Source of the DNA: a virus
IMG/VR virus record: IMGVR_UViG_3300028025_002632
Coordinates: 1-43,180 of that record
Reading direction: 5' to 3' (one strand)
DNA length: 43,180 nt
The notes beneath the pieces were generated by a model that made no database searches, was not told the DNA's origin, and was given only the letters and a program-made list of their open reading frames with translations. The translations under genes were made by a program, and so were the position numbers. Positions within the stretch are counted from its first letter, which is position 1. The number at the start of each line of letters is the position of its first letter. Of the stretch, positions 556-41,673 are shown piece after piece.

Positions 556-588
556 TTTGGATTGTGTGTGTTTACAATCTTATGTTTG
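556..588 (+). promoter_or_regulatory. Bacteroidota-type promoter for the structured leader RNA
   Basis: TTTG at 556-559 and TATGTTTG at 581-588 match the Bacteroidota consensus TTTG-N19-21-TAnnTTTG, with a 21-base spacer. Transcription would start near 595. It would run through the paired pseudoknot motifs and the hammerhead ribozyme into the first small genes. This is the only full match I found in the first kilobase. Confidence 0.65.
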
Positions 589-634
589 CATTGTCAATCA
601 CGATAACGATTGATTAGTTCTTTTCAGCATTGCC

Positions 635-675
635 TCCGCACACCTCACCTCACTAAGTGACTTAGTCCCTGCGGA
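635..675 (+). ncRNA. Stem-pseudoknot motif, copy A
   Basis: An outer stem TCCGCA/TGCGGA (635-640/670-675) encloses the core CACCTCACCTC (641-651), an inner stem ACTAAG/CTTAGT (652-657/661-666) with triloop TGA, and CCC (667-669). The triloop TGA (658-660) is complementary to TCA (645-647) in the 5' internal strand, so a 3-bp pseudoknot can form. Copy B keeps the architecture and changes both sides of this contact together. Confidence 0.7.
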
Positions 676-737
676 ACATTTGGTAACGATACGAGCATGA
701 AGAATGCCAAGTTACCTGAGGTTAACTTCCTCAGCAG

Positions 738-780
738 GTACACACACCTTGCCTCACTAAGCAACTTAGTCCCTGTGTAC
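738..780 (+). ncRNA. Stem-pseudoknot motif, copy B
   Basis: The outer stem GTACACA/TGTGTAC (738-744/774-780) differs completely in sequence from copy A but pairs perfectly. The core CACCT-TG-CCTC (745-755), inner stem ACTAAG/CTTAGT (756-761/765-770), triloop CAA (762-764) and CCC (771-773) follow. The triloop CAA pairs with TTG (749-751). Relative to copy A the variable dinucleotides are swapped on both sides (CA with TG becomes TG with CA). That is the pattern expected of a selected pseudoknot. Confidence 0.7.
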
Positions 781-951
781 TTTCAAATCAGTTCCTTCGT
801 GGTATCATAAGACTACGATTGTATATAATGCGTCAAACCTGTGCTTCGTTACAGTTAGGATGTTGGGATGAACAGCCGAAGGGACTCATCTACTGCATGG
901 ACCATTAGTGTATTGACCTGTCTACACCTACTCCATAACGCATAAGTAAAA

Positions 952-1004
952 GATATCTACAGGTATGCTTCCTGTACTGACGAGTCACAGCATGACGAAA
1001 TATC
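952..1004 (+). ncRNA. Type III hammerhead self-cleaving ribozyme
   Basis: All conserved core elements are present in type III order. Stem III is GATA/TATC (952-955/1001-1004), followed by U956 and C957, the nucleotides just 5' of the cleavage bond. Stem I is TACAGG/CCTGTA (958-963/971-976) with loop TATGCTT. The core CTGACGA is 977-983. Stem II is GTCA/TGAC (984-987/993-996) with loop CAGCA, and the core GAAA is 997-1000. U956 pairs with A1000, as in known hammerheads. Every stem is perfectly paired and the only non-helical bases are the catalytic core and two loops, which could make the usual loop I-loop II contact. Cleavage is predicted between 957 and 958, leaving a 59-nt leader before the ATG at 1017. 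Confidence 0.92.
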
Positions 1005-1016
1005 AAACACACACAA

Positions 1017-1214
1017 ATGAAAGAAACAACAACATTTTGCAAAGAAATGTCAGAGAATTTTAATTCTCTTAATGAATTAATAGAAGAATTGAAATATCCT
1101 AATTTATACTTATTAAAAAGAAAAACTGAAACTTCTATTTTGTCTGAATTAATGATAGAAATCAATAGATGCTATAATTTGACAGCAGATAGGAGAGACG
1201 AAGTAACTAACTAA
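1017..1214 (+). CDS. Hypothetical small protein, first gene after the ribozyme
   Basis: This 65-residue product is predicted to be mostly helical (FNSLNELIEELK, then ILSELMIEINRCY), with no signal peptide or membrane segment. I do not recognise a family. The ATG lies 12 bases past the 3' end of the hammerhead, so after self-cleavage this would be the first gene on the processed mRNA. A run of small genes with A-rich leaders follows on the same strand. The reading frame opens cleanly after the structured region, and the opposing minus-strand frame at 905-1165 has no coding features, so this one is preferred. Confidence 0.6.
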   Translation: MKETTTFCKEMSENFNSLNELIEELKYPNLYLLKRKTETSILSELMIEINRCYNLTADRRDEVTN

Positions 1215-1228
1215 AAAAAACAATCAAC

Positions 1229-1444
1229 ATGGGAAAGTTTATGTTAACAAGATTCTCAACTAAGTGTGCAGAGACAGGTAAGAGGATAGACAAGGGAGAG
1301 TATATATACCTTGACTGTGAGACAAAGAATGCATATTCTCTAGAGTCCAGCAGGTATGCTCAAGAGAGAGCAAACACATCTGAGGCAGACTACATCATTG
1401 CACAGGAGAATGCATACTACCAAAGGCTTTATTCAAATTTCTAA
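1229..1444 (+). CDS. Hypothetical 71-residue protein
   Basis: The N-terminal third contains KCAETGKRIDKGEYIYLD. It resembles half of a small zinc-binding or beta-hairpin module of the type Cys-x2-3-Gly-x-x-Ile-x-Lys-Gly-Glu, but a second cysteine pair is missing. The rest is helical and rich in Ala, Gln and Tyr. An A-rich leader ending AATCAACATG precedes the start, the pattern shared by the neighbouring genes. The function is unknown. It belongs to the block of small early genes after the ribozyme. Confidence 0.65.
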   Translation: MGKFMLTRFSTKCAETGKRIDKGEYIYLDCETKNAYSLESSRYAQERANTSEADYIIAQENAYYQRLYSNF

Positions 1445-1461
1445 TCAATAAAAAAAACAAC

Positions 1462-1602
1462 ATGAAAAAGTTAATCAACACAGTTCCTGTCCTGTTCCTG
1501 ACAATCATCGTAGCATTTGACCTTACACAAATCATCTGTTACACATTCTTCCCTAAGTCAATCGTATCACAATCAATTCAATCATTAATCAATTCAATCT
1601 AA
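1462..1602 (+). CDS. Small single-span membrane protein (46 aa)
   Basis: The frame begins MKKLINTVPVLFLTIIVAFD and continues for 46 residues to TAA at 1600-1602. Residues 8-28 form a hydrophobic segment that could be a membrane anchor or an uncleaved signal. It has the same A-rich leader as its neighbours (AAAAAAACAACATG). The gene sits five bases before the next ATG, in a row of tightly packed small genes. No family is recognised. It could be an early host-membrane effector, but nothing in the sequence shows this. Confidence 0.55.
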   Translation: MKKLINTVPVLFLTIIVAFDLTQIICYTFFPKSIVSQSIQSLINSI

Positions 1603-1607
1603 TCAAC

Positions 1608-1802
1608 ATGAGAAAAGCAATCTGCCTAGCATCCGCAATCTTTTATTTCTTCGCATCGTTCGTCATCCCTTACATGTTCCTAGCATTCACAGAGCCGACA
1701 GGAGCAAACCTGACCTGTATGTGTATGCTATTTTTAATGTCAGTATTAGGATGCTACGGATACGGAAGTACCTACATGGAAATTAAAAATAAGAACAATT
1801 AG
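1608..1802 (+). CDS. Small two-span membrane protein (64 aa)
   Basis: The 64-residue product has two hydrophobic stretches, about residues 4-26 and 33-52, joined by a short polar link (EPTGAN), and ends in a basic tail (KNKNN). The layout is that of a small integral membrane protein. It is rich in Cys and Phe. It follows the 46-residue membrane gene after five bases, so the two are probably co-translated. The family is not recognised. Holin function is unlikely this far from the lysis cassette. Confidence 0.6.
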   Translation: MRKAICLASAIFYFFASFVIPYMFLAFTEPTGANLTCMCMLFLMSVLGCYGYGSTYMEIKNKNN

Positions 1803-1840
1803 TGTTTGTAAACATTCAATCATCAATCAATCAAATCAAT

Positions 1841-3790
1841 ATGAAAAAGTCAACAAGAAAGTTCGCAGTAATTAATCGTCAAAGGTCTAACGACAAGTTC
1901 ATTCTACCTATGAATTTAGATGCCTTAAGGCATATCCTGTCACTAGATTCTGAAGTAGGTGAAGACATATGCCTAGAGCAAATTAACATAGGATATAGCT
2001 CTAGTGATTCATACAAACCACTACTAAGGATGGCAAAAAACACTAGATGGACTGATGTATTAACAGTTAGGAACAGAGAGAACTACAGCTACTACGGAAG
2101 CTATAGGTATATGAGACTGATAGACGTAGACGTAAAAATTACTGAGAGACTGTTTGAATGGATGCAAAGTTACACAAACCTTAAATGGATTGAAGAAGAC
2201 AACAAGCAGTTCATACTTGTTGATGAGTCCATGATTCCTGAAGGGATGACAGAGTCATTTGTAAAAAAGAACAAGCTAGTAGGTAAGGATGACACACAGG
2301 AGATATATGGTGATGCATCAATCATGTCCTACCACTACTCTCAATGGCATCCTGAAGTTGAGAAGCAGTTCACCAAGTTGATGGACAGTACAGAAGGAGC
2401 AGTGAACTTTGGCTTTGAGGCAGAGAAGGTACACGAGGAACTTGCTGAGGACGGAATTGCAATGAAGTTAGCACACGAGACAGGATACAAGAAAGAGTAT
2501 GACGGAAGTCTTGGTAGTGAAGGATTTGAACTTATCTCTCCTGTCCTACCACTATTCAATCAGCAGGTAATTGATGAGTCAATATCTCCTGTGAGAGAGC
2601 TACTTAATGCAGACACAAACGACAGATGCGGAGGACACATCAACATATCTAAGAACGGATTTAATTCAAGGGACATACTCAAGGCAGTGAAAGGAAGTCT
2701 TCCAATCCTGTACATGATATACGAAAAGAGAATGGGAAACAGGTACTGCGAGGCAAAGAAGTTCAGCACATATCTCAGAAGACCACAGAAGTACTCTGCC
2801 TGTTATCTTAAGAACAATAGCATACTTGAGGTCAGATTGTTCCCTGCAATTAAAAATACATCTGTACTACAGAACAGGATTGAACTTATGAGAATGATAA
2901 TGGGAGAGCTGTACGGAAAGTCTGCAATCAAGGTACTTCTTGAACTTGCCAATCCAACAACAAACCTTCATAACTTCATCCTGAACAGACTACTTAACGG
3001 AAGCAGAGACAAGATGATAAACAAGATAAAGATGTTTGTTGACCTGTCAGAGAGATACGGATGCGGAAAGATTTCAATGCCCACTAAGAAAAAGATAAAC
3101 AAGTTGATGCAGTCAGAGATATTCAACATACCTGTCCCTGTAGCACAGGTCACACAGGTAGTTCCTGAAGTAGAACAGGAGACTGTACAGACTACAGACG
3201 AGAATATCAATGTATCATTGGAAAGTCCTACAGATGCATACGACAGTCACTATACAGCGTACATGAATTCAAACGACTACCTGTTTCAATCTACAGACAA
3301 TGAAGTTAGAGATGCATTCGTAACTGTTGATGAGGCAGTAACAACATACAATGCTGGACTTCCTCCAAACGAATTGTTCTCGGCAATACTAGACAGGTCA
3401 ATATCATCACAATGTCACATTCAAAGAGAAGTAGGTCAGGAGCATTTTGATAGACTTATTAGAGAGTTTACTTGGAGGTTTAATGACACAAGACAAGATA
3501 ACACGTCTGATGAGAGGGTAAAACGTACAAGTATTGTTATGTCACTTAAGACTTTCTTTATAGCTAAATACTTCCTGACACGTATTGACATATCGTCCTT
3601 ATGCAAAAGGATACAGGGGATTGTAAGAGTAGGAGATGAATATGTTTTCTACCTAATCAATAGAGACGAGAACGGAAATGTTGTAGGTATGTTCGGTGAG
3701 AGGGGAGAAGGCATTCAGTGGAAGATTGAAAAGAGACAGGCAGAGAATTCGTACAGACTCTTTAAACTTAACACCATTAGTATAGATTGA
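1841..3790 (+). CDS. Predicted amidoligase (ATP-grasp-like COOH-NH2 ligase)
   Basis: The central part matches the amidoligase_2 pattern. It has FGFEAE (190-195 from this start), DGSLGSEGFELISP (221-234), CGGHINIS (263-270) and LEVRLFP (329-335), the spaced acidic, His and Arg residues expected to bind ATP-Mg and substrate. The family joins a carboxyl group to an amine using ATP. About 170 residues precede the motifs and about 300 follow, so the protein is longer than a minimal amidoligase. The C-terminal part is not recognised. A GTG at 1802 would extend it by 13 residues, but the ATG at 1841 has the typical AATCAAATCAATATG leader and is preferred. The next gene is a class II glutamine-amidotransferase-like protein. 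Amidoligase and GAT-II genes are known to neighbour each other in phage and bacterial modification clusters. The substrate is unknown. Confidence 0.75.
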   Translation: MKKSTRKFAVINRQRSNDKFILPMNLDALRHILSLDSEVGEDICLEQINIGYSSSDSYKPLLRMAKNTRWTDVLTVRNRENYSYYGSYRYMRLIDVDVKITERLFEWMQSYTNLKWIEEDNKQFILVDESMIPEGMTESFVKKNKLVGKDDTQEIYGDASIMSYHYSQWHPEVEKQFTKLMDSTEGAVNFGFEAEKVHEELAEDGIAMKLAHETGYKKEYDGSLGSEGFELISPVLPLFNQQVIDESISPVRELLNADTNDRCGGHINISKNGFNSRDILKAVKGSLPILYMIYEKRMGNRYCEAKKFSTYLRRPQKYSACYLKNNSILEVRLFPAIKNTSVLQNRIELMRMIMGELYGKSAIKVLLELANPTTNLHNFILNRLLNGSRDKMINKIKMFVDLSERYGCGKISMPTKKKINKLMQSEIFNIPVPVAQVTQVVPEVEQETVQTTDENINVSLESPTDAYDSHYTAYMNSNDYLFQSTDNEVRDAFVTVDEAVTTYNAGLPPNELFSAILDRSISSQCHIQREVGQEHFDRLIREFTWRFNDTRQDNTSDERVKRTSIVMSLKTFFIAKYFLTRIDISSLCKRIQGIVRVGDEYVFYLINRDENGNVVGMFGERGEGIQWKIEKRQAENSYRLFKLNTISID

Positions 3791-3798
3791 TGATTGAT

Positions 3799-3838
3799 GT
3801 AGGGGATGAGGACATCCAATACTCCCCTACTTTTTTTT
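3799..3838 (+). terminator. Rho-independent terminator after the amidoligase
   Basis: GTAGGGGA (3799-3806) pairs perfectly with TCCCCTAC (3823-3830), and eight T residues follow (3831-3838). The hairpin starts eight bases after the stop codon. The last Ts also form the -33 element of the next promoter. Confidence 0.85.
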
Positions 3839-3866
3839 GTCAAACAAGATTTATTTATTAACTTTG
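3836..3866 (+). promoter_or_regulatory. Bacteroidota-type promoter for the GAT-II gene
   Basis: TTTG (3836-3839), a 19-base spacer and TAACTTTG (3859-3866) match the consensus exactly. The predicted start is near 3873, which places the ATG at 3890 about 17 bases into the mRNA. Confidence 0.85.
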
Positions 3867-3889
3867 CATTCACCAAAATATCAAACCAT

Positions 3890-4867
3890 ATGTGTACATT
3901 CTTCGTAAAAAAACCAAATCAGAGAATCAACAAAGAGCATTTCGTAAACATCATAGACAACAATCCGCAGGGCTTTGGATTCGTCTATACCACAGGAACT
4001 AAATTGATGATAGTTAAGTCACCTTCACCTGATGCTGAAGTCATGTGGAAGAAGTTCTGTGACGCAGAGAGCAAGTTCCCTAAGTCACATTTCATCGGTC
4101 ATGGCAGGATTGCTACAGGCAGTAAGTTGACAAATGAGAATACCCATCCGTTTCTTGTCAACAAGGGACTAGCAATAGTACATAACGGAATCCTTAGAGA
4201 CTTTCCATCTACTGCACAGAAGTCTGACACAGTACAGTATATTGAGCAGGTACTTAGAAAGATGCCTACGGACTTCTACAAGAACAGGTCAATCATGGAC
4301 ATGGTAGGCAGAGACATATCAAGCAGTAAGTTTGCAATGCTTACTGTAGAGAACAAGGTATATGTAGTCAATCGTCACCTATGTGTAATTGATGGTGTGT
4401 CAGGTGTGCTGTTCAGCAACAGCAACTTTAGAGCTACAGAGTACTTTGATTATGGAGGCAAGAAGGTAGCTAAAGTTGACTTCGGTAAAAAGAACAAGTC
4501 ATACCAATATCAGAATTCAACTATACACAAGCAAAGTGAGATAGGATTTCATGTTGACTCTGAATCATGCGAGATTCAAGAAAATACCTTCAGCGACTGG
4601 ATACATTGTGAAGACTGCAAAGACTGGGTAAAGAAGCATGAGTTTAGCTACGAATGGGGTGTATGTAATAAGTGTGAGGACGAATACGGACTTAAGGATA
4701 CAAAGAACGGATACAAGACAGTACAAGGTAAGTACGAAAGCGAATTGAATTACTGCGATGACTGTGGCATGAACGTAGCATCTCATTCATATGAGGATTG
4801 GAGGATATGTGACCTATGCATAGGCAACTACAAGAAAGAAGACAGCAATCAGGGACTTCCCTTCTAA
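3890..4867 (+). CDS. Class II glutamine-amidotransferase-like protein with two Zn-cluster modules
   Basis: The frame is open from 3806, but that ATG lies inside the terminator and upstream of the promoter. The ATG at 3890 gives Met-Cys at the N-terminus, as the N-terminal-nucleophile GAT-II fold requires. Family motifs follow: HGRIATG (71-77), NTHPF (84-88) and VHNG (97-100). The family hydrolyses glutamine to release ammonia for an acceptor or synthetase domain. None is fused here, so the neighbouring amidoligase is the natural partner. Unusually, the last third carries two Cys-x2-Cys clusters (HCEDCKDW with VCNKC, then YCDDCGM with ICDLC), which suggests two small zinc-binding modules for protein or nucleic-acid contact. 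The protein ends in GLPF. It has its own promoter and a terminator behind it, so it is a single-gene unit. Confidence 0.8.
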   Translation: MCTFFVKKPNQRINKEHFVNIIDNNPQGFGFVYTTGTKLMIVKSPSPDAEVMWKKFCDAESKFPKSHFIGHGRIATGSKLTNENTHPFLVNKGLAIVHNGILRDFPSTAQKSDTVQYIEQVLRKMPTDFYKNRSIMDMVGRDISSSKFAMLTVENKVYVVNRHLCVIDGVSGVLFSNSNFRATEYFDYGGKKVAKVDFGKKNKSYQYQNSTIHKQSEIGFHVDSESCEIQENTFSDWIHCEDCKDWVKKHEFSYEWGVCNKCEDEYGLKDTKNGYKTVQGKYESELNYCDDCGMNVASHSYEDWRICDLCIGNYKKEDSNQGLPF

Positions 4868-8059: not shown

Positions 8060-9850
8060 ATGAACAGCGAAAATAAGTTACCTATATATGTCTCTGTGTA
8101 TCAGAACAAGAGTTCTGTAGATTCTCCTAATAATGTATCACTTGAGTATGTGCTAAATTGGATAAAGGTAGGCAGGTGGTCTAAACAGGTAGACTCAGTA
8201 AGAGCTACAGGAGAAGGTAAAGGTGACCTTCCATGTGTAACATGGGCTGGAATATTTCATAGTGGGAATAGAAATGAGACTGGTATATCTGAGTTCTCAG
8301 GATTTGCTCCTATGGACTTTGATATGAAGGAGTTTGATGAGTCTGACATAGTTGAGCAAATTTCAAGCCTTAAGGAAGACCCACACGTATATGCTATATG
8401 GAGGTCTGCTTCAGGTAAGGGAGTTCATGCACTGATGAAGATACATTCCAGTGAGAACTATAGAGCTCACTATAGGGCTATAATAAAGAACTATCCAAGT
8501 ATAGATGAGAAGTGTAGTAATATATCAAGGATACTATTTATAAGCCATGACCCTGAGCTATATGTAAACGAAGATGCTCTTGACTTTACTGAGCTAATTG
8601 CTGAGGAGATATTATCACTGTCTTCTATGCCAACTAAGGCTGACAAGACAGACTTTAGAAAGCTAGAGTTAGTATGTAATATGTTTCTTAATGCTCAGGT
8701 TGGGGAACGTAACGACAAGATGTTAAGGGCATCTAGACTTCTTGGTGGTTTTATTACAGGAGGAATCATTCAGGAGGACATAGGAAGGTCTGCACTACTT
8801 GGTGCACTTGAGCACAGGAGATATGAGTTAGGCGAGGAGGACTACAGGTCTGCAATTAAGACTATGGACAATGGAATTACTCATGGTAAACTTTCCCCTA
8901 TCCATGAGATTCAGGACGAGTTCCTTAAGATATCACTGGCAGAAGCAATAAAGGAGGAGGACATACTAAAGTTCACACAAAGTGAAGAGGAAGGACTAGA
9001 CTTCTTGATGAAGTATAAGAGAGGTGAGTTTGACAGGGGATTAGATACAGGATATCCTGAGTTTGACCCACACTTTAAGTTTATAAAGAAGGCACTTACG
9101 GTTGTTCTTGGTCATGGACATAGCGGTAAGACATCTTTTGCACTATGGATGTGTATCTTATCTGCCAAGTCTCATGGTTGGAAGTGGGCAATATATTGTG
9201 GAGAGAATTCAGTTGAATCTGTTAGACTTATTCTAAACCAATATAACATGGGTAAGAGAGTTGAGGACGCATCTTTTATGGAGATTCAGAAATCAAACAG
9301 ATGGGTAAGTAATAAGTTCGTAATACTAAAGAACGAAGATTTACTTGAGCCTATTCAGGTGTTAGACTTAATTGATAAGGTAAGGTCTGTATATTCAATT
9401 GATGCCTGCCTTATAGACCCATTTAATTATTTAAAACTTGCAGGTAAGGAAAGATACAATTCAGTCATAGAGGCATATACATTATTCAGAAATTACTGTC
9501 TTAGGACAGGTATAAACCTGTGGTTAGCTGCACATACAAATACAGAAGCTCAGAGGGAAGATAAGATGCCTACGGCTGCACAGGCAGAGATGGGTTCTAT
9601 GTTATTTAATAAGGCTGACCAGTTCCTCTGTGTTCATAGAACTACTTGGGAGGATGACGACCACACGATAAGGAACAATGCCTGTCAGGTATATGTAGCC
9701 AAGACAGACAGAGACCAGCTGTATGGATTGATAAAGGGTAAGTATAAGGAGCCTATTGAACTTAGGTATACAAGGATTGGATTTACAGATAAACATAATA
9801 TGTTTCCTTACGTAAGCCACAACGACCAACAGACTAAAATATTGTTCTAA
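8060..9850 (+). CDS. Primase-helicase (AEP/VirE-type N-terminus plus RecA-fold helicase)
   Basis: Residues about 30-180 resemble the BT4734/VirE N-terminal domain, which belongs to the archaeo-eukaryotic primase group. PMDFDMK (85-91) supplies the paired aspartates and GKGVHALMK (119-127) the histidine. A helical linker with ERNDKMLRASRLLGGF (216-231) looks like a primase C-terminal (PriCT) segment. The RecA-type domain follows, with Walker A GHGHSGKTS (351-359), Walker B DACLIDPFNYL (around D453) and AAHTN near 509-513. It would prime and unwind at the replication fork. It starts directly after the origin-like AT tract. No separate DnaB, primase or DNA polymerase is found in this window. Confidence 0.8.
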   Translation: MNSENKLPIYVSVYQNKSSVDSPNNVSLEYVLNWIKVGRWSKQVDSVRATGEGKGDLPCVTWAGIFHSGNRNETGISEFSGFAPMDFDMKEFDESDIVEQISSLKEDPHVYAIWRSASGKGVHALMKIHSSENYRAHYRAIIKNYPSIDEKCSNISRILFISHDPELYVNEDALDFTELIAEEILSLSSMPTKADKTDFRKLELVCNMFLNAQVGERNDKMLRASRLLGGFITGGIIQEDIGRSALLGALEHRRYELGEEDYRSAIKTMDNGITHGKLSPIHEIQDEFLKISLAEAIKEEDILKFTQSEEEGLDFLMKYKRGEFDRGLDTGYPEFDPHFKFIKKALTVVLGHGHSGKTSFALWMCILSAKSHGWKWAIYCGENSVESVRLILNQYNMGKRVEDASFMEIQKSNRWVSNKFVILKNEDLLEPIQVLDLIDKVRSVYSIDACLIDPFNYLKLAGKERYNSVIEAYTLFRNYCLRTGINLWLAAHTNTEAQREDKMPTAAQAEMGSMLFNKADQFLCVHRTTWEDDDHTIRNNACQVYVAKTDRDQLYGLIKGKYKEPIELRYTRIGFTDKHNMFPYVSHNDQQTKILF

Positions 9851-17642: not shown

Positions 17643-18089
17643 TTAATTTTCCATCTGAATAACCTCAGCCTCAATGATATCAGAATCATCTTCAGATTTA
17701 GTGAAATCTAGTCCTTCTACCCACCCTTCTAAGAATTGATACATCTCAATCCCATCTGTAGAGAATGTAAACTGGTAAAACTCAAATGTTTCATCTAATA
17801 AAGATTTAACAGATTTATTTAGATTGCGTATGCCATCCTTAGAAAACTTATATTCACCCTTTTCATTAAGCAAAAGGCTTCCACTTTCATCCGTATTTGC
17901 ATTATCAAGCCTAATATCTTCTAGCTTTTCATTATATGACTCTAGGTAAGGTTTTATCTTTTCTCCAACCTTTTGTAGCTTTTTTACTCCCTTTGTATTC
18001 TCTTTGATGAATTCTTCATTACGAAGAAGAACATTAATAACTTGAACTAAGCTCAGTAGTTCACTGTTTGATTTGTTTACTTTTGCCAT
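17643..18089 (-). CDS. Hypothetical helical phage protein (148 aa)
   Basis: Nearly all helical with coiled-coil character: SELLSLVQVINVLLRNEEFI, then KENTKGVKKLQKVGEKIKPY and LESYNEKLEDIRLDNANTD. A short beta insert (SLLLNEKGEYKFSK) and an acidic end (FTKSEDDSDIIEAEVIQMEN) follow. Small helical proteins of this type often lie near phage tail genes as chaperones or regulators, but I cannot name a family. It is a single-gene unit with its own strong promoter (18112-18142) and its own terminator (17607-17633), so its expression is set apart from the late operon around it. Confidence 0.65.
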   Translation of the reverse strand: MAKVNKSNSELLSLVQVINVLLRNEEFIKENTKGVKKLQKVGEKIKPYLESYNEKLEDIRLDNANTDESGSLLLNEKGEYKFSKDGIRNLNKSVKSLLDETFEFYQFTFSTDGIEMYQFLEGWVEGLDFTKSEDDSDIIEAEVIQMEN

Positions 18090-18111
18090 TTTATTAATTT
18101 TTGTGTATATG

Positions 18112-18142
18112 CAAAGGTATGTACATAAAAATTCTAACCAAA
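18112..18142 (-). promoter_or_regulatory. Bacteroidota-type promoter for the 148-residue gene
   Basis: On the minus strand TTTG (18142-18139), a 19-base spacer and TACCTTTG (18119-18112) match the consensus exactly. The ATG at 18089 lies about 15 bases after the predicted start. The -33 element is inside the terminator stem of the upstream gene. Confidence 0.8.
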
Positions 18143-18170
18143 ATATTTTTATACTTTGGCTAGAATTTTT
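18127..18170 (-). terminator. Terminator of the tail-fibre operon
   Basis: AAAAATTCTA (18127-18136) pairs with TAGAATTTTT (18161-18170), and CCAAA (18138-18142) with TTTGG (18155-18159), with one A/C mismatch. It lies 13 bases past the stop of the 102-residue gene. The T-run of the stem itself gives the U-tract. It overlaps the next promoter. Confidence 0.65.
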
Positions 18171-18183
18171 ATATACAATTATA

Positions 18184-18492
18184 CTACTCTTCAGTAGAAT
18201 TTATTGCATCAATAATTGGTTCAATAACCTCTGGGGCTGGTGGCTCTGGAATCTTAACATCCCATGGAGCATTAGCTAGGATGTCATCAATCAGAATCTG
18301 GTCAGAATCTGTCCACTGAGCAATGATTTCCTGTGAGAAGGTATAGTTACCGTCTTTAAGGTTCTGTCCTCCCTCTGTTTGGATTGCCCAATAAGACCAT
18401 CCGCTTGGGTACTGAACATAGAAATAGCCTTTTGTAGCTTCTACATTTAAGAAGGGCATTGCTGGACTAAGCTGAAATTGAATGTTTGTCAT
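18184..18492 (-). CDS. Tail-fibre-associated hypothetical protein (102 aa)
   Basis: The N-terminal half is beta-rich and aromatic (KGYFYVQYPSGWSYWAIQTE). The C-terminus is acidic and proline-rich (VKIPEPPAPEVIEPIIDAIN). It lies directly downstream of the 1827-residue fibre gene and overlaps the 78-residue gene by four bases (ATGA). Small proteins in this position are often tail-fibre assembly chaperones or tip proteins, but no family match is recognised, so this is an inference from place. Confidence 0.55.
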   Translation of the reverse strand: MTNIQFQLSPAMPFLNVEATKGYFYVQYPSGWSYWAIQTEGGQNLKDGNYTFSQEIIAQWTDSDQILIDDILANAPWDVKIPEPPAPEVIEPIIDAINSTEE

Positions 18493-18725
18493 TTTATTAT
18501 ATTTATATTATTTACATTGCAAAACCAATTTACTACAACACTATCATCAGAACCCCATATATCAAGTATTTCATTTGGTATTGGTTGTTCTATTTCTGTA
18601 ACCTTAATATCATCTTGATATAAAATCCCTTTTGCTATCCAATTATTTGAATATGCTTTTGCATTAGGAAATTCTAATTCCATTTTATTACATACATAAC
18701 TATAATCCTTGCTAATATTTATCAT
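18489..18725 (-). CDS. Hypothetical protein between fibre and chaperone-like genes (78 aa)
   Basis: An acidic soluble protein: MINISKDYSYVCNKMELEFP, then WIAKGILYQDDIKVTEIEQP, IWGSDDSVVVNWFCNVNNIN. It is probably a small beta-rich fold. No family is recognised. It follows the large fibre gene after six bases and overlaps the next gene by four bases, so it is expressed as part of the fibre unit. Confidence 0.55.
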   Translation of the reverse strand: MINISKDYSYVCNKMELEFPNAKAYSNNWIAKGILYQDDIKVTEIEQPIPNEILDIWGSDDSVVVNWFCNVNNINIIK

Positions 18726-18731
18726 ATATAT

Positions 18732-21700
18732 TTATTTTGTTCTTCTTGCTAATACATTCATAAAATACATTGTTCTTAATGTCGTTCCCGCCCTTTTAGC
18801 TATACCGCACCCAAAAAATGGGTCATTTGGCATTTGGGTAGGTAGTCCTGTTGTTTGTGTATTTACTAAAGTTCCATTAATATAAAACTTCATTGAAGTT
18901 CCCCCAATAAATTCAATCTCTAAAATATATACAGTAGATGCTGCAACTGCCACATTACTATCTAACCTATTAGCATATCCATTATAAAAACAAGTCCAAT
19001 CACCTGCATTAATATCGTGTGAATAAATAAATCCAAAACCTTGTGTAAATACAGGATTCCATATAGCATTTGGATAAACGCCATTTCCAATAGCAATATT
19101 ATATGTATTTGTAGCATCACTTAATGAAGATGGGGTTTGTAACACAAATCTCCATATAGTTGTAGTATTTGTATTTAAATAGGCAAGCTGTGTTTGACTT
19201 GTATTAACACCTGCATATCCTGTTGTTGTTGTGCCTGTATTAAATTGGATTGGCAAAGACTTTGACTTAACAACAGTAGTTGAACCAAACATATTTGCAG
19301 ATGAACCTGTACCTGCAGTCTGTGCAGAAAATGGGTGAGGTATTGAACTACCGCCCATATTTCCACTATAATAAATCATTTCTTGTCCTGTTATTACAGG
19401 CTGCCATTCATTTCCAATATAAAAATATTTACCATTAAACCCATCAGTTTTATATATCTCTAATCCATCAGTAGGAGATGAAATAGCCATCATTTGTACA
19501 GATGTCATTGCCGGTGGCAGAAATCCTTTTGTAGTTGAATTTAAATGAAGTAACGCACTTGAATTAGGAGATGATGTGTTTATGCCAATAGATGTAGCAT
19601 TCTCATAAATTAAACTATCAGATAAAGATGATGTACCAGATGCTTTTGGAATATATCCTGTTGTTAATGTTCCATTAATACCACCACTTGCACTTATCGT
19701 TCCACCACTTATTGTTACATTTGTTCCTGCCGTTATTACCGAACCATCCGCAGCAAGTATCTGTGCTGAAGTACCACCACTCTTTATTAATGATGATGCC
19801 GTTACAGATGATGCAAAAGTAGCTGCTGCTGTTGTTACAGCAAAAGTTACAGCAGTACCAAAACCTTGCATATCTAATAGTATAGAACCCGATGGAGAAT
19901 ACCATCCTCCTGAATACACATTTGTATCTCTGCGAAATATATTATATCCTGCACTTGAACCTGTTGTAGTTATTCCGCCTGCCGTTACAGATGAACTGAA
20001 TGTGGTTGCACCTGTGGCTGCTATTGTTAATAATGCCGATGAACCCGATGCATATAACCTTGCTTCATTACTTGAACTTCCTGCACCATTATATTTAAAA
20101 TTCCAAGAAAATGCGTTATTAGTTGAATTATTTTTACCGAAAGCTAAAAATACTTCATTTCCTACAGAAAGATTTGGAGCAAGTGAATTTATTGTTCCTA
20201 CAAATGCACCATCTGCACTTGTTGACACTAATGCACTCCCACTAACCTGCAACCTATCTGTTCCATTATCCGTTGTCGTTCCCAACAATAACCTCCCACT
20301 CGCATTAAGTTTCATTGCTTCGGTGAAGGTTATAGCTACACCTGCTGTTCCACTTGGTGCTATTCTCCAAACGTGTTGACCTTGATACATATAATACATA
20401 GAAGCAAAATCTGTATTTATGTATATATCGTTTGTGCCATTATAATATGAGTTATTACCAAATACTGAATACGTATTTGCAAGAGAATATAATGATGTAT
20501 ATGTACCTAATTGAATAGCCTTTACAGTTCCACCCCACGCACTCGGTGTAACTCCTATACCTACGTTGCCACCGCTTGTGATACGCATACGTTCAGAACC
20601 TGCTGTACTAATGATATAATTACCTTGATTTGTATAGACGGATGCTATGTCAGAACTACCTTGATTATATCTTATTGCAGCGTAATCAGTAGCAGTATTT
20701 CCTGTTGTTGAAATTGTTATTCCTAAATTTCCTGTTCCAGATACTTGTAATTTATCATTAGGACTTATAGTACCTATACCTACGTTAGTTCCATTATCAA
20801 ATATTGTACTATCTCCTAATGCACTTGTTCCTGTAAATTTAGCAATATAATTAGTTGTTCCTGTGCCTGTAATTGGATTAGTTAATGATGCTTGTCCCCC
20901 TATGTCTGACAATAATTCTGCCCCTGTTCTATATTTAATTATTCCACTATCAGATACTAAGAATTTATCTGTATCTGTAGTAGCTGCATTTATTGTATCT
21001 AATTTTAATGTTCCTGTAAATCTTCCACTTCCACCAACTTGCAAAGAACTTGTTGTATCATCTGTGACAATAGAAGTTCCTAATAATGTTCTTCCATCAT
21101 TTAATATTCTTAATCTTGGTTGAATAGTAGCAGTTGTTCCTGCTGTTCCAGATATAGTAGTATTTAATTGAATATATCCATTAGCTGTATCTGCTTGAAA
21201 TTGTGCTCCATAACCTGTTTGGTCATATACCCATTGACTTCCATCATATCTTAAATTACTTCCAAATATAAAATTAGAATATGCAGTTTGAATAAATCCG
21301 CTATTCCATCCTGTTTGAGCAAGTTTAACATATCCACTAAGTCCAATATTAGCGACTAAATATTTGCTTGTATTATTCCAACTAAAATCAGAAGAACTTG
21401 TTATTGTATTTGTTCCACTCCAATAACTTATTTGCCCACTTGTTCCTGTACCTGTAACAGGATTGGTTAAAGTAGTTGTGCTACCATCTGCCATTAAATA
21501 TTGGGTAGCTGTTCCACCAGATTTAATTATGGAAGTAGCTGTTACGCTACTTGCAAATGTTCCTGCACCTGCATTTGTAATAACTAAAGCATTTGCAGCA
21601 CCAAGTGTTTTAAATGTTATACCACCACCGCTACTATTATAAATAGTTGCAACAAGACTTCCAGATGTAAACTGAACTTGAAAATTTGCAGAACCTCCAA

Positions 21701-37289: not shown

Positions 37290-37729
37290 AGTGATATTTT
37301 TTTATTTTCTAATACTATTTTTAATAATTCATTTTCTCTGTCTTCAAGTAGCCTACACTCAATCTCTTTTAAATCTTGCGAGTCTTCTTCGTTTAGGTGA
37401 TATGTAGTCCATATGCAGTCCTCTATTATATAGAGTATCCTTCTCGTCCCCGGCTTAGTTATTCCTGTATACGGTGCTTCAAACTCCTCCCAGTCCTTTC
37501 CGTCTATAGACACAGCAACCCTACCTTTAGATATGGTATATGGATGCTCTGTCTTATGTATTTTACTCGTCACAAGAGTACCAGTAGGCATGAATATCTC
37601 CCTAATATACATACCCGGAGTAAACCTGTGGACGAGTGGACATTCAAAAACTTCATAGTTCTCAGCCATAAATGCCTCAAGCTCATCTACCCTTCCATCA
37701 TTCTCCCTTATAATTACGTCTTTACTCAT
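37286..37729 (-). CDS. Cupin-like virion-region protein (147 aa)
   Basis: A beta-barrel pattern can be read: FTPGMYIREIFMPTGTLVTS, KIHKTEHPYTISKGRVAVSI, GITKPGTRRILYIIEDCIWT, TYHLNEED. The two cupin half-motifs are the region around H-x-T-E-H and the later PG-x-x-R...T-x-H. Metal-binding His and Glu residues are present in part. Similar small cupin-like proteins occur near tail genes of many podoviruses, with unknown function. It is coupled on both sides: its ATG shares one base with the stop of the 1314-residue gene, and its end overlaps the next gene by four bases. Confidence 0.65.
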   Translation of the reverse strand: MSKDVIIRENDGRVDELEAFMAENYEVFECPLVHRFTPGMYIREIFMPTGTLVTSKIHKTEHPYTISKGRVAVSIDGKDWEEFEAPYTGITKPGTRRILYIIEDCIWTTYHLNEEDSQDLKEIECRLLEDRENELLKIVLENKKISL

Positions 37730-40700
37730 CAGTTTATTTTTGATTCGTTGTATCCGTATTTAAGTACAAGCAAAGTTACATAATTAGACGGTGTCAAAGA
37801 CTTTAATTCTATTATGCACCAGTTTCCCCTAATTGGCTTACCAGTAGTAGGTGTAGCAGCTCCGCTGTCTCTCAAAAATGGAGCGTTATAGAACCCTTCC
37901 TGATTTCTAAAATATGTATAAGGTATTGAAGAATCTACAACATTTGCAGAGCCCTTTACGTACTCAGCTGGCCACATAGAGTTTCCAACTTCTGTAAGAG
38001 TCATATATATCTTCTTCATTATTGGGTTCTCATTAAGAATAATCTTAACCTTTGCATCTTGCTGAGAGCCAAAAAAGTTACAGTAGCTTACACTTGACTT
38101 ATGCTCCCATAGAGAGCCAGTAGTGAAAGATGTATAAAGCTTATTATTTAGAGAATTTATAGAATATGGATAGTACGTATAAAAAGAGTCAAATCTCTCA
38201 GTTCTTTCAGAGAAAGATATCGTAAACTTGTCAGAGTCCTTCTCACTTGAAAATATGACTATTCTGTTCTCAGAGTCATATCCAGCTACGTATCGTGCGT
38301 CATTCTTTATATTTTCAGCAGCCCATATATTCATGTTCGTAGTTATAGATATTGGGGTTATACCCTCAAGACCTAACCTACATACCGCCTTCCTTATGTC
38401 ATCTATAAAGTAGTCTGCATATGAGTCAGAAACAAGGCTACCTACTGCGTTGCCTATAGAGTAGTTTCCTGCATAGTACTGTACGTTATTGAACAGCTCC
38501 GTAGATAGGGTAAGGTCTGTCCCACCAGATGCGTTAGTTATTATTGATTGGTATACTGGAAGTACCCCAACCTTGTCCTCCTGATAGCACCTCAACATCC
38601 TGTCCCTTACTGCAAGACGCTTAACTGGACCAAAAGACGCATCTAGGTCTTTAAAGTCAAGGTAAAGGAACCTATTAAGTCCGTTTACGTTACTATTAAA
38701 CTCAAGGTTCTGAGACCATCTAACTGTAGCTGGGAACTCTCTCTCCCTAGCCTGCTTATCTTCAATGGCCGGTCTTCCATTCTTATTTATTTTAGCTAAG
38801 AACAGCGGAGACATACTGTCCTCCTCAATCAAGTAGTTCTTAGTAGGCACAGATGAGTAGAACACACGCTGCACAGAGTCCACCTTTCCTCCTATCGGAG
38901 TTGCTGTAGAGCCTTCAAGTATTACGTAGTCAGACTTGTATACACAGTCTCCAGCTAGATTCATCTCTATATTATCTCCGAGAGTATATGAAGCTACGTC
39001 ATACGTCTGAGGTATCTCGTAGTACACATCACCCTGACTTCCTGTAGAAGAAATCTTCTTCTGCCTTAAAATCTTTGCCTTAATCCCAACTATCTGGGTG
39101 GCTCCTGAAGTGTCTCCAGATGCCTGAATAAATGTCTTTGCAGACTCCTCTACCTGAACCCAATTTCCAGAAAGCTGAACAGTTGTTCCATCTGACTGAT
39201 AAAATTCTGGGTCAATAAGTAGGTCTATAATCTTATAAACCTTTTGATTTAATCCTATTCCGTTATATGAACCTCCAACAAGTTTATTTTTATAGTAGTC
39301 ATAAACAAAAGATATCTCGTCTCCACTCTGGAACGTATATCCTAAGTTACTGATTCTAAGAGCAAGTTGTTTTGGGGATGTAGATTCTTCTGCCGGCAAC
39401 ACAGAGCCATTAACTACGGATACATTTACATATGTATCAGTAACGAATCCTGTAGTTGTCTGATACTTAAATCCAGATATTGAGTACGGAACTGGTAGAG
39501 ATAGTGTAGTAGAGCCAAGTGCTGCAATAGATGTAGCAGCTCCACCACTTACTGCATAGTATATAGTATCTGACAGGTTATTCGTTATTGTAATGTTTGC
39601 ATTTGATGCAGCTACATATTCATTTACATCATGTATACTTACGCTATTAACTGTATATCCAGATGGAACAGATTGAGTTGTAGTGAATGTAGAGCCAGTT
39701 GTTAGTGTTCCAGTATATATGTAATCAAGATATGTAGTAGTTCCAACTGGGTATCTTCCCGGGAATCCTCCAGAATAAGTTCCATCAAAATAAAATCTAA
39801 TCTTTATATTAGTTACTGGAGTTGAGCCTATATATTGGAACTGTATCTGATAGCTTCCGCCTACATTAGCTATATTAGAAACAAAAAAAGTACCATTTGC
39901 TAGTGGATTTACATAGCCTCCGGGACTACCTGCAGTATTAACAACAACTGTATAGTCTGTTCCAGATACCGCAGACACAAGCTTCTTATATTCAAATACC
40001 ATCCTGTTTGGGTCTCCTACAGGCTTATTTCTGTATGTTATTGATTGTGGAGAGGCAGATGTATTAAAATATAATGTAGATGGTGCATTTGTATCACAGT
40101 TGCTATATGCAATCTTTAAGTACTGACCAGTCCCATATGACTTAAAGAACGGTATATCTCCCTGTGGGCCTCCATTGGCCACAGAAGGGAATGTAATATT
40201 AGTCAAGCTACACGTCTCACCAGTTAATGTAAGTGATGAGTACTTGTAGTCTATTACGTCTGTAACTACCTCTGACTCGTAGTTGTTGTCGTCTGTTATC
40301 GCAAGTCTAAAGTACTTAGACCAAGACGGTGCAGATGACGCTATCTGTATATTTGGCAGGTACGTCTTTCTAGTCTTCCACCAGTTGTCTCCAGTAGCTG
40401 CAGCAAGTAATGTCTCGTCCCAGTGTATGTGGGGGACATTTAATACCATAGTATTATTTGTAAAAACTCCTGAATTTCTTCCATATTCATCCATATATAC
40501 AACACCAACCTTATACTTGCCTCCCGGATTTAGAACTAAATTTGATGCAGTATTTACATTACTACCAAAGAACATCTTATTTTGACCTACATATGTATTA
40601 TTTGTAAGCCCAACAGTAGATGATATAGGCGACTTGTCATAGCCCTCTTTAAAGTTACCATATACCACTACGTTGCCATTTACTACTTCCTGAGCCTTAG

Positions 40701-41673
40701 CAGATATTGGTACATAGTCGTACTGAAGCACGTCTGGTGCCTCTGAATTATCCAACGGTATCTTCTGGCCAGTTCCAGTAAATGTATATAGTATTGGAGA
40801 GCCTGTAGAGTCTATGGTATCTATAGTATAGAAGTTGCTCCATATACCATCAAAGTACTCCCTATATATAATTTCTAGGTTCTTTACATTTGACTCACCT
40901 GACTGTATTGTAAACTGTACTGCGTTGTATGCTATAGAGTTGTCTTCAGGTAATATATTTGTCTCATTGAATATATAGTACGGTGCAAGTGAGTTAGACA
41001 TAGGAGAGAACACAGACTTCTCATAGTCGTCATATATATATCTATATGAGAACTGATACATCTTGTTCTGTATAGTAAGGTTACCATTAGATACTCTTAC
41101 AAAGTTTATATTAAGAGGCTCTATAACTGGTGGCTTCTTTATTACAGTAGTAAATGAAGCAAGTATGTTAGCACCGTAGTCTCCGTTCTTTGCTTTCCTT
41201 ATATTTATCTTTCTTGGAACACCGTCCTTATCAAGCCAAAATAATAGGTCTCCCTCCTCAGTATTATCTGCCCTATTTATTATTCTAATGTTATGACACT
41301 GTACAGACGTAGATAAATTTATAGCTCCTGAATCTGCATTTGTACCACACTTTATAATAATTTTATGTATCCCAGTTATCTGGCTAAATTCTGTAACTAG
41401 GTGATTCCCTGAAGAGTTTGCTATAAGATATATTATAGCATCTCTTAATGTATTCTTTACTGAACCTACAACTACATAACTTGAGCTAAGTGTAAAGTTA
41501 GTGACTCCGTCTAAGTCCTTAAGAAGAACTTGAGAATTACCTATGATGTTATTAATACCGCCATATGTGGTTATATTTTTTGCATCAAGGTAGTCTCCAG
41601 ATGGAACCAACTCGTTGTCGTAGTCTGAATTTAGACCTCCATTTATACTCTTGGGCTGTAAATATTGTGCCAT
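37729..41673 (-). CDS. Large tail-hub/stabilisation-like protein (1314 aa)
   Basis: The N-terminus QPKSINGGLNSDYDNELVPS, then GDYLDAKNIT, is the typical opening (NGGLNsDxdxxlvpxGdYldAxN) of very large tail proteins. I associate these with the tail-tube/stabilisation group that forms the nozzle below the portal in podoviruses of Bacteroidota. The rest is beta-rich with long stretches of predicted beta-propeller and sandwich type. There is no signal peptide. It lies directly after two smaller putative adaptor proteins, the order in which such phages encode the head-to-tail path. Exact role by homology only. Confidence 0.6.
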   Translation of the reverse strand: MAQYLQPKSINGGLNSDYDNELVPSGDYLDAKNITTYGGINNIIGNSQVLLKDLDGVTNFTLSSSYVVVGSVKNTLRDAIIYLIANSSGNHLVTEFSQITGIHKIIIKCGTNADSGAINLSTSVQCHNIRIINRADNTEEGDLLFWLDKDGVPRKINIRKAKNGDYGANILASFTTVIKKPPVIEPLNINFVRVSNGNLTIQNKMYQFSYRYIYDDYEKSVFSPMSNSLAPYYIFNETNILPEDNSIAYNAVQFTIQSGESNVKNLEIIYREYFDGIWSNFYTIDTIDSTGSPILYTFTGTGQKIPLDNSEAPDVLQYDYVPISAKAQEVVNGNVVVYGNFKEGYDKSPISSTVGLTNNTYVGQNKMFFGSNVNTASNLVLNPGGKYKVGVVYMDEYGRNSGVFTNNTMVLNVPHIHWDETLLAAATGDNWWKTRKTYLPNIQIASSAPSWSKYFRLAITDDNNYESEVVTDVIDYKYSSLTLTGETCSLTNITFPSVANGGPQGDIPFFKSYGTGQYLKIAYSNCDTNAPSTLYFNTSASPQSITYRNKPVGDPNRMVFEYKKLVSAVSGTDYTVVVNTAGSPGGYVNPLANGTFFVSNIANVGGSYQIQFQYIGSTPVTNIKIRFYFDGTYSGGFPGRYPVGTTTYLDYIYTGTLTTGSTFTTTQSVPSGYTVNSVSIHDVNEYVAASNANITITNNLSDTIYYAVSGGAATSIAALGSTTLSLPVPYSISGFKYQTTTGFVTDTYVNVSVVNGSVLPAEESTSPKQLALRISNLGYTFQSGDEISFVYDYYKNKLVGGSYNGIGLNQKVYKIIDLLIDPEFYQSDGTTVQLSGNWVQVEESAKTFIQASGDTSGATQIVGIKAKILRQKKISSTGSQGDVYYEIPQTYDVASYTLGDNIEMNLAGDCVYKSDYVILEGSTATPIGGKVDSVQRVFYSSVPTKNYLIEEDSMSPLFLAKINKNGRPAIEDKQAREREFPATVRWSQNLEFNSNVNGLNRFLYLDFKDLDASFGPVKRLAVRDRMLRCYQEDKVGVLPVYQSIITNASGGTDLTLSTELFNNVQYYAGNYSIGNAVGSLVSDSYADYFIDDIRKAVCRLGLEGITPISITTNMNIWAAENIKNDARYVAGYDSENRIVIFSSEKDSDKFTISFSERTERFDSFYTYYPYSINSLNNKLYTSFTTGSLWEHKSSVSYCNFFGSQQDAKVKIILNENPIMKKIYMTLTEVGNSMWPAEYVKGSANVVDSSIPYTYFRNQEGFYNAPFLRDSGAATPTTGKPIRGNWCIIELKSLTPSNYVTLLVLKYGYNESKIN

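Follow-up and report, generated by a model that had tools for sequence, protein, structure and literature searches.

To our knowledge, the natural functions of most hammerhead ribozymes outside viroid-like RNAs are unknown. Hammerhead cleavage leaves a 2',3'-cyclic phosphate on the upstream product and a 5'-OH on the downstream one. The Rfam family RF00008 (Hammerhead_3) has an open stem III, closed stems I and II, the core CUGANGA/GAAA and UH before the cleavage bond. In haloviruses HF1 and HF2, an early polycistronic transcript has the HHphage ribozyme (HF2 NC_003345, 10292–10359) 11–13 nt before the start codon of its first ORF, and the 5' end mapped for a transcript there lies no more than three nucleotides from where cleavage is predicted (Perreault et al. 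2011, PMC3088659). A hammerhead has also been reported for phage PaP3 (PMC3088659).

The window analysed here is the whole IMG/VR record IMGVR_UViG_3300028025_002632, a stretch of 43,180 bases that is classed as linear and is therefore likely a fragment of a genome. A protein encoded at 37729–41673 (−) matches Crassvirus muzzle protein families and has ~27% identity to structural proteins of Cellulophaga phages phi38:1 and phi13:2 and of Flavobacterium Elemovirus. A primase-helicase with a BT4734-like N-terminal domain is encoded at 8060–9850. From these two proteins, we read the virus as a crAss-like podovirus with a Bacteroidota host. Genes of replication type are oriented rightward, starting at 1017, and those for structural proteins leftward, from the right end. 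The closest sequenced relative covering the region is L056, whose early protein is 49% identical. The first early operon and the ribozyme that precedes it comprise the following features:

952–1004 (+): complete, canonical type III hammerhead ribozyme (direct reading, scan, covariance model and class covariation)
957–958 (+): predicted scissile bond C17/N1.1, with a 2',3'-cyclic phosphate on 957 and a 5'-OH on 958, as expected from hammerhead chemistry
977–1000 (+): catalytic core and stem II, CUGACGA-GUCA-CAGCA-UGAC-GAAA (CAGNA subclass), one base off the Elemovirus stem-loop II (GUCA-CAGAA-UGAC)
1005–1016 (+): unstructured 12-nt spacer AAACACACACAA, followed by ATG at 1017 (direct reading)
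1017–1214 (+): first early gene, 65 aa (ORF list)
1229–3790 (+): remaining ORFs of the first early operon, 71, 46, 64 and 649 aa (ORF list); two of them, those of 64 and 649 aa, are homologous to genes of L056
3799–3838 (+): intrinsic terminator closing the operon, GUAGGGG...CCCCUAC followed by U8 (−14.1 kcal/mol), in a block 82% conserved in L056

Used as a query, the 649-aa early protein retrieved no close relatives in viral_contigs and, among named phages, one weak match (26%). Directly after the terminator (region 3799–3891), a further Bacteroidota promoter is found at 3836–3866, and the probable start of a glutamine-amidotransferase-like gene is the ATG at 3891, as against 3806 in the mechanical ORF call.

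Each known system resembles this locus in part. The ribozyme shares the architecture of RF00008 described above, but its loops, UAUGCUU and CAGCA, differ, and it has no Rfam match at any threshold. It shares with HF1/HF2 the position just before an early operon; the halovirus ribozyme, however, is annotated with type II topology, has an altered core, belongs to an archaeal host and precedes a DNA helicase gene. The PaP3 hammerheads are recovered by the same type III model, although the phage is unrelated. The hammerhead of Flavobacterium phages elemoA–F (Elemovirus, e.g. NC_055853, 17867–17919, minus strand) is also type III, with a CAGAA loop II and a Bacteroidota promoter upstream, but its leader is ~180 nt, has a different conserved structure and lacks a boxA-like motif. 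Both the ribozyme type and its placement are already known, and the view of the earlier note on this DNA that a position before the first early gene is unusual is not supported, given the published precedent in HF1/HF2 (PMC3088659). In the open-access papers searched (subscription papers and preprints lay outside the scope), we found no description of how large the class is, of its strict spacing or of its coupling to a promoter and structured leader in Bacteroidota phages.

The hammerhead at 952–1004

The three helices stand in type III order, with stem III open. Stem III (G952–U956/A1000–C1004) has 5 bp, GAUAU/AUAUC. Stem I (U958–G963/C971–A976) has 6 bp, UACAGG/CCUGUA, and is closed by the loop UAUGCUU (964–970), while stem II (G984–A987/U993–C996) has 4 bp, GUCA/UGAC, and is closed by CAGCA (988–992). 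The core strands are CUGACGA (977–983) and GAA (997–999) with A15.1 at 1000, U16.1 at 956 and C17 at 957. Every pair is Watson–Crick and every core position is canonical, and C957 satisfies the H (not G) rule at position 17 before the cleavage bond. The earlier reading of a complete type III hammerhead is borne out in its coordinates, its predicted cleavage after C957 and its distance of 12 bases from the first ATG. The locus also lies, as claimed, at the junction of a structured noncoding region, the ~360-nt leader, and the early operon.

An exhaustive scan for all three hammerhead types on both strands of the 43,180 bases retrieved 952–1004 as the sole match. The full motif is expected by chance 0.005 times per mononucleotide-shuffled window and 0.01 times per first-order Markov window, and with stems as long as those observed it occurred in none of 100 simulated windows. 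The minimum-free-energy fold is the hammerhead fold, with an unexceptional folding energy (z −0.67). A pattern search demanding the loop I sequence UAUGCUU retrieved 27 stretches, none of them hammerheads. The UGCU of loop I can pair with the AGCA of loop II; across the class, this pairing averages 2.21 against 2.10 after swapping, with 2.6% of swaps as high, a signal too weak to claim class-wide loop–loop kissing.

The check proposed in the earlier note, cmsearch with the Rfam hammerhead models, returned no match even at E ≤ 10, including when the 68 bases at 945–1012 were searched alone. RF00008 and RF00163 gave these bases no score at all, and Rfam searches of the hammerhead region and of the whole window found no match. 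RF00008 gives the Elemovirus hammerhead 36 bits, yet none to the canonical 952–1004. A control set of phage hammerheads, gathered by core pattern and then checked by pairing, scored 9–45 bits with RF00008 (best 45.3), so that every phage type III hammerhead tested falls below the gathering cut-off of 48.5 bits. A cut-off that misses the tested phage type III hammerheads generally offers a partial explanation for the lack of a match for 952–1004. Since the Rfam cut-offs miss this population, phage genomes are under-annotated for ribozymes. An independent covariance model, trained on 24 phage type III hammerheads with the window excluded, detected 952–1004 at 56.4 bits (E = 7.3e-15) and nothing else in the window; it also recovered two hammerheads in phage PaP3.

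A chance match or a decayed, inactive hammerhead would fit the missing Rfam match and the ordinary folding energy. This explanation is highly improbable given the motif frequency, the independent model score, the covariation within the class, the intact core and the fully paired stems. From its sequence, 952–1004 is almost certainly a real hammerhead ribozyme, with cleavage predicted.

Placement among phage hammerheads

Phage hammerheads are typically found shortly before genes. Enough flanking sequence was available for 124 distinct phage hammerheads; an ATG ORF begins 10–45 nt downstream of 64% of them, compared with 16% of random same-strand positions and 2.6% on the antisense side. The CAGNA subclass was searched in IMG/VR with a pattern constrained solely in the core, loop II and part of stem II; the search gave 102 stretches, nearly all of them complete type III hammerheads. 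In the 59 distinct members with enough sequence, an ATG lies 9–23 nt downstream in 83% and within 23 nt in 97% (random positions, 13%; antisense side, 6%). The position of the ribozyme before the first early gene, far from being unusual as first supposed, is therefore typical (64% of the 124; 97% of the 59).

An alignment of 72 phage hammerheads, fitted to the model and including 952–1004, was judged against slid and shuffled controls. In this class 97.9% of pairs form, and compensatory changes occur in all three stems. Double-sided changes number 391, against 106 in shuffles, and the covariation score reaches 0.91, whereas slid controls do not exceed 0.13.

This placement bears on the possibility that the leader is disposable and that the ribozyme is selected only for the mRNA 5' end, a 5'-OH with hairpins that resists 5'-end-dependent decay and leaves the start codon open. 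The tight ATG distance of 9–23 nt is the most conserved feature of the class, the surveyed ribozymes precede many different genes, often with several per contig, and the leader is not common to all of them. Against it, several phage groups have leaders that are conserved, structured RNAs in their own right, and in long leaders a boxA-like motif follows the promoter. We consider this explanation rather unlikely.

Elemovirus hammerheads are identical in all 68 sequenced records and lie 14 nt before the first gene of a small-gene operon, with a promoter 178 nt upstream. The class, locked 10–20 nt before phage genes, is thus present in a cultured pair, Elemovirus and Flavobacterium sp. BAL314, which makes the question of its function directly testable. 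In NC_055853 (elemoF_6-3D, 17867–18851), the hammerhead is unannotated, and short hypothetical CDSs (gp58–gp55) are placed on the opposite strand just upstream.

Type I hammerheads were also observed. Several phage contigs (L082, L093, L122, L160 and others) carry arrays of 3–6 type I hammerheads, mostly before different genes, and L107 and L134 each have a type III ribozyme with additional type I ribozymes downstream of it. A complete type I hammerhead is present in L185 (2013–2067), a contig whose helicase is 33% identical to that of the window.

Promoter and leader RNA

Upstream of the hammerhead, the order is promoter (556–588), ~360-nt structured leader, hammerhead and early operon. The following features were recognized:

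556–588 (+): Bacteroidota-type promoter TTTG-N21-TATGTTTG; the + strand of the window has two strict matches to the consensus, of which this is one; predicted transcription start at about 594–596
595–957 (+): noncoding leader RNA of ~360 nt, spanning promoter to cleavage site, with predicted release by the ribozyme; absent from L056
617–623 (+): boxA-like motif GTTCTTT, 28 nt after the promoter −7 box; enriched in the class
635–675 (+): leader hairpin module 1, outer stem UCCGCA/UGCGGA, inner stem ACUAAG/CUUAGU (repeat and pairing)
738–780 (+): leader hairpin module 2, outer stem GUACACA/UGUGUAC, inner hairpin as in module 1; a duplicate, in two copies only
853–890 (+): conserved leader element AGUUAGGRUGUUGGG-stem-AGCCGAARGG-stem', common to L224 (AGTTAGGGTGTTGGGTGCAGAGAGCCGAAAGGTCTGCAC)

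The outer stems of the two modules differ in sequence, with pairing fully compensated. In the element at 853–890, the loop strands are conserved with L224, while the stems show compensatory changes (GAUGA/UCAUC versus UGCAGA/UCUGCA). The folding energy of the leader as a whole is ordinary (z −0.37). A blastn search against phages and plasmids returned no match to the leader, and the exact leader-repeat pattern was absent from IMG/VR. E. coli-type sigma-70 promoters were also considered and set aside, being fewer in the window than in shuffles.

L224, a colinear relative, has the one clear homologue of this leader. It has a promoter, a 395-nt leader, a hammerhead whose loops are of the same types and an ATG 13 nt further on, and it aligns with the window in three colinear blocks of leader and ribozyme (~70% identity; E 1e-6, 1e-3 and 1e-2). 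The order promoter, long leader, hammerhead and gene is also found in L280, L248 and L274, each with a homologue of the helicase of the window. L224 and L280 carry the muzzle protein as well.

In L056, the region homologous to 1–1016 is intergenic, between divergent gene blocks. A homologous promoter (minus strand, 5258–5227) lies 39 nt before the first early gene, and neither leader nor hammerhead was found in this early region. Because the L056 promoter stands directly before the first gene, the phage of the window has ~400 extra nt, corresponding to the ~360-nt leader and the ribozyme. The function of the ribozyme is therefore not essential, since L056 does without it. A block missing from a relative could point to a selfish or circularising RNA element, viroid- or retrozyme-like, as hammerheads elsewhere serve such elements. 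However, the window holds a single ribozyme, the 5' end of the leader is a promoter with no second ribozyme there, and the position before an ATG is fixed in many phages; of the explanations considered, this is the least probable.

Other conserved leaders were observed in the survey. In Elemovirus-like contigs (L134, L194, L221, L231, L237, L251, L269, L275 and L282), another conserved leader RNA lies upstream of the hammerheads, with the form GACTATAA..GGGTN[x]ACTCTGG..CCGA[x'], where x and x' covary (GTCT/AGAC, GCAT/ATGC, TAGC/GCTA and GGTC/GACC). The one such leader tested against Rfam, that of elemoF, gave no credible match. A second conserved leader type, CACGAACCCAAATAGGTAGTATGTG...GGTCTAGGAAGA, is located between promoter and hammerhead in L209, L238, L249, L254, L259, L263 and L288.

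Proposed role of the ribozyme and its leader

We consider it probable that a ~360-nt structured leader is transcribed from the promoter at 556–588, that the type III hammerhead at its 3' end (952–1004) acts in cis, and that the main effect of this ribozyme is to detach a functional leader and give the early mRNA a defined, hairpin-capped 5' end. Transcription from this promoter would yield an RNA beginning with the leader, and once the polymerase passes ~1004 the ribozyme would fold and cut after C957. The released leader would end in a 2',3'-cyclic phosphate. The 5' UTR kept by the early-operon mRNA would be 59 nt long, beginning with a 5'-OH and comprising the hairpins of stems I and II and a 12-nt unpaired spacer before the AUG. 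In this way, the leader would be detached and the mRNA 5' end set near the start codon without a host nuclease. Separation of the leader from the early mRNA by the ribozyme is likely. The sequences show the anatomy of the ribozyme, its class-wide covariation and placement, the order of promoter, leader, ribozyme and gene in other phages, and a leader partly common to another phage. That the RNA is processed by self-cleavage in the cell, as the earlier note has it, is a good inference, and the purpose of cleavage is likewise inferred. The conservation of structured leader RNAs in several phage groups leads us to favour the two benefits together, the making of an mRNA end and the freeing of a leader with its own job.

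Alternatively, the ribozyme may be a regulated switch, in which upstream leader folding or a ligand controls cleavage and hence early gene expression. In favour, stem III directly follows a structured leader, and salt control has been proposed for the HF1/HF2 variant (Perreault et al., PMC3088659). The core is canonical, however, without deviations, no conserved alternative pairing with the leader was found, and class members occur in varied upstream contexts. We regard a switch as improbable.

The own job of the leader, in the favoured reading of leader release, might be related to antitermination. RNase III separates the rRNA and lambda leaders from the RNAs that follow. The leader of the window resembles rRNA and lambda nut antitermination leaders in having a boxA-like motif just after the promoter and in its predicted later separation from the RNA it precedes, but separation here would be by a ribozyme instead of RNase III. 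In rRNA leaders, boxA recruits antitermination factors (PMC10250234). In 8 of the 16 class promoters (control, 2.3%), the boxA-like motif GTTCTTT follows the −7 box by 19–42 nt, a comparison among related phages with a motif picked after being seen. Leaders above 300 nt carry it in eight of ten cases, shorter ones in none of six. For 60 of 103 Bacteroidota 16S genes, the similar sequence GTTC(A/T)TT(G/A)A occurs 60–190 nt upstream. Given the post hoc choice of motif and the relatedness of the phages, antitermination is a hypothesis, not a result, and the view of long leaders with this motif as antitermination leaders cut off by the ribozyme is speculative. In its general form, Bacteroidota phages would have a boxA-type antitermination leader on the early promoter, removed by a hammerhead 10–20 nt before the first start codon, with the ribozyme in the role of RNase III. 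The modified polymerase would keep the leader, the mRNA would be freed for translation, and the terminator at 3799–3838 could be read through. We hold this general form to be doubtful.

Two further features of the noncoding region were observed. A perfect 12-nt inverted repeat links 562–573 (TTGTGTGTGTTT), in the promoter spacer, and 1005–1016, in the start-codon spacer; RNA pairing between them was rejected, as 562–573 lies in the promoter spacer, outside the predicted transcript. Far upstream of the early promoter, a block at 48–147 is ~72% conserved with L056 (minus strand, about 5633–5534). It contains the candidate pairings TTCCC/GGGAA and CCTAGCCC/GGGTAGG and is possibly an origin or a regulatory element.
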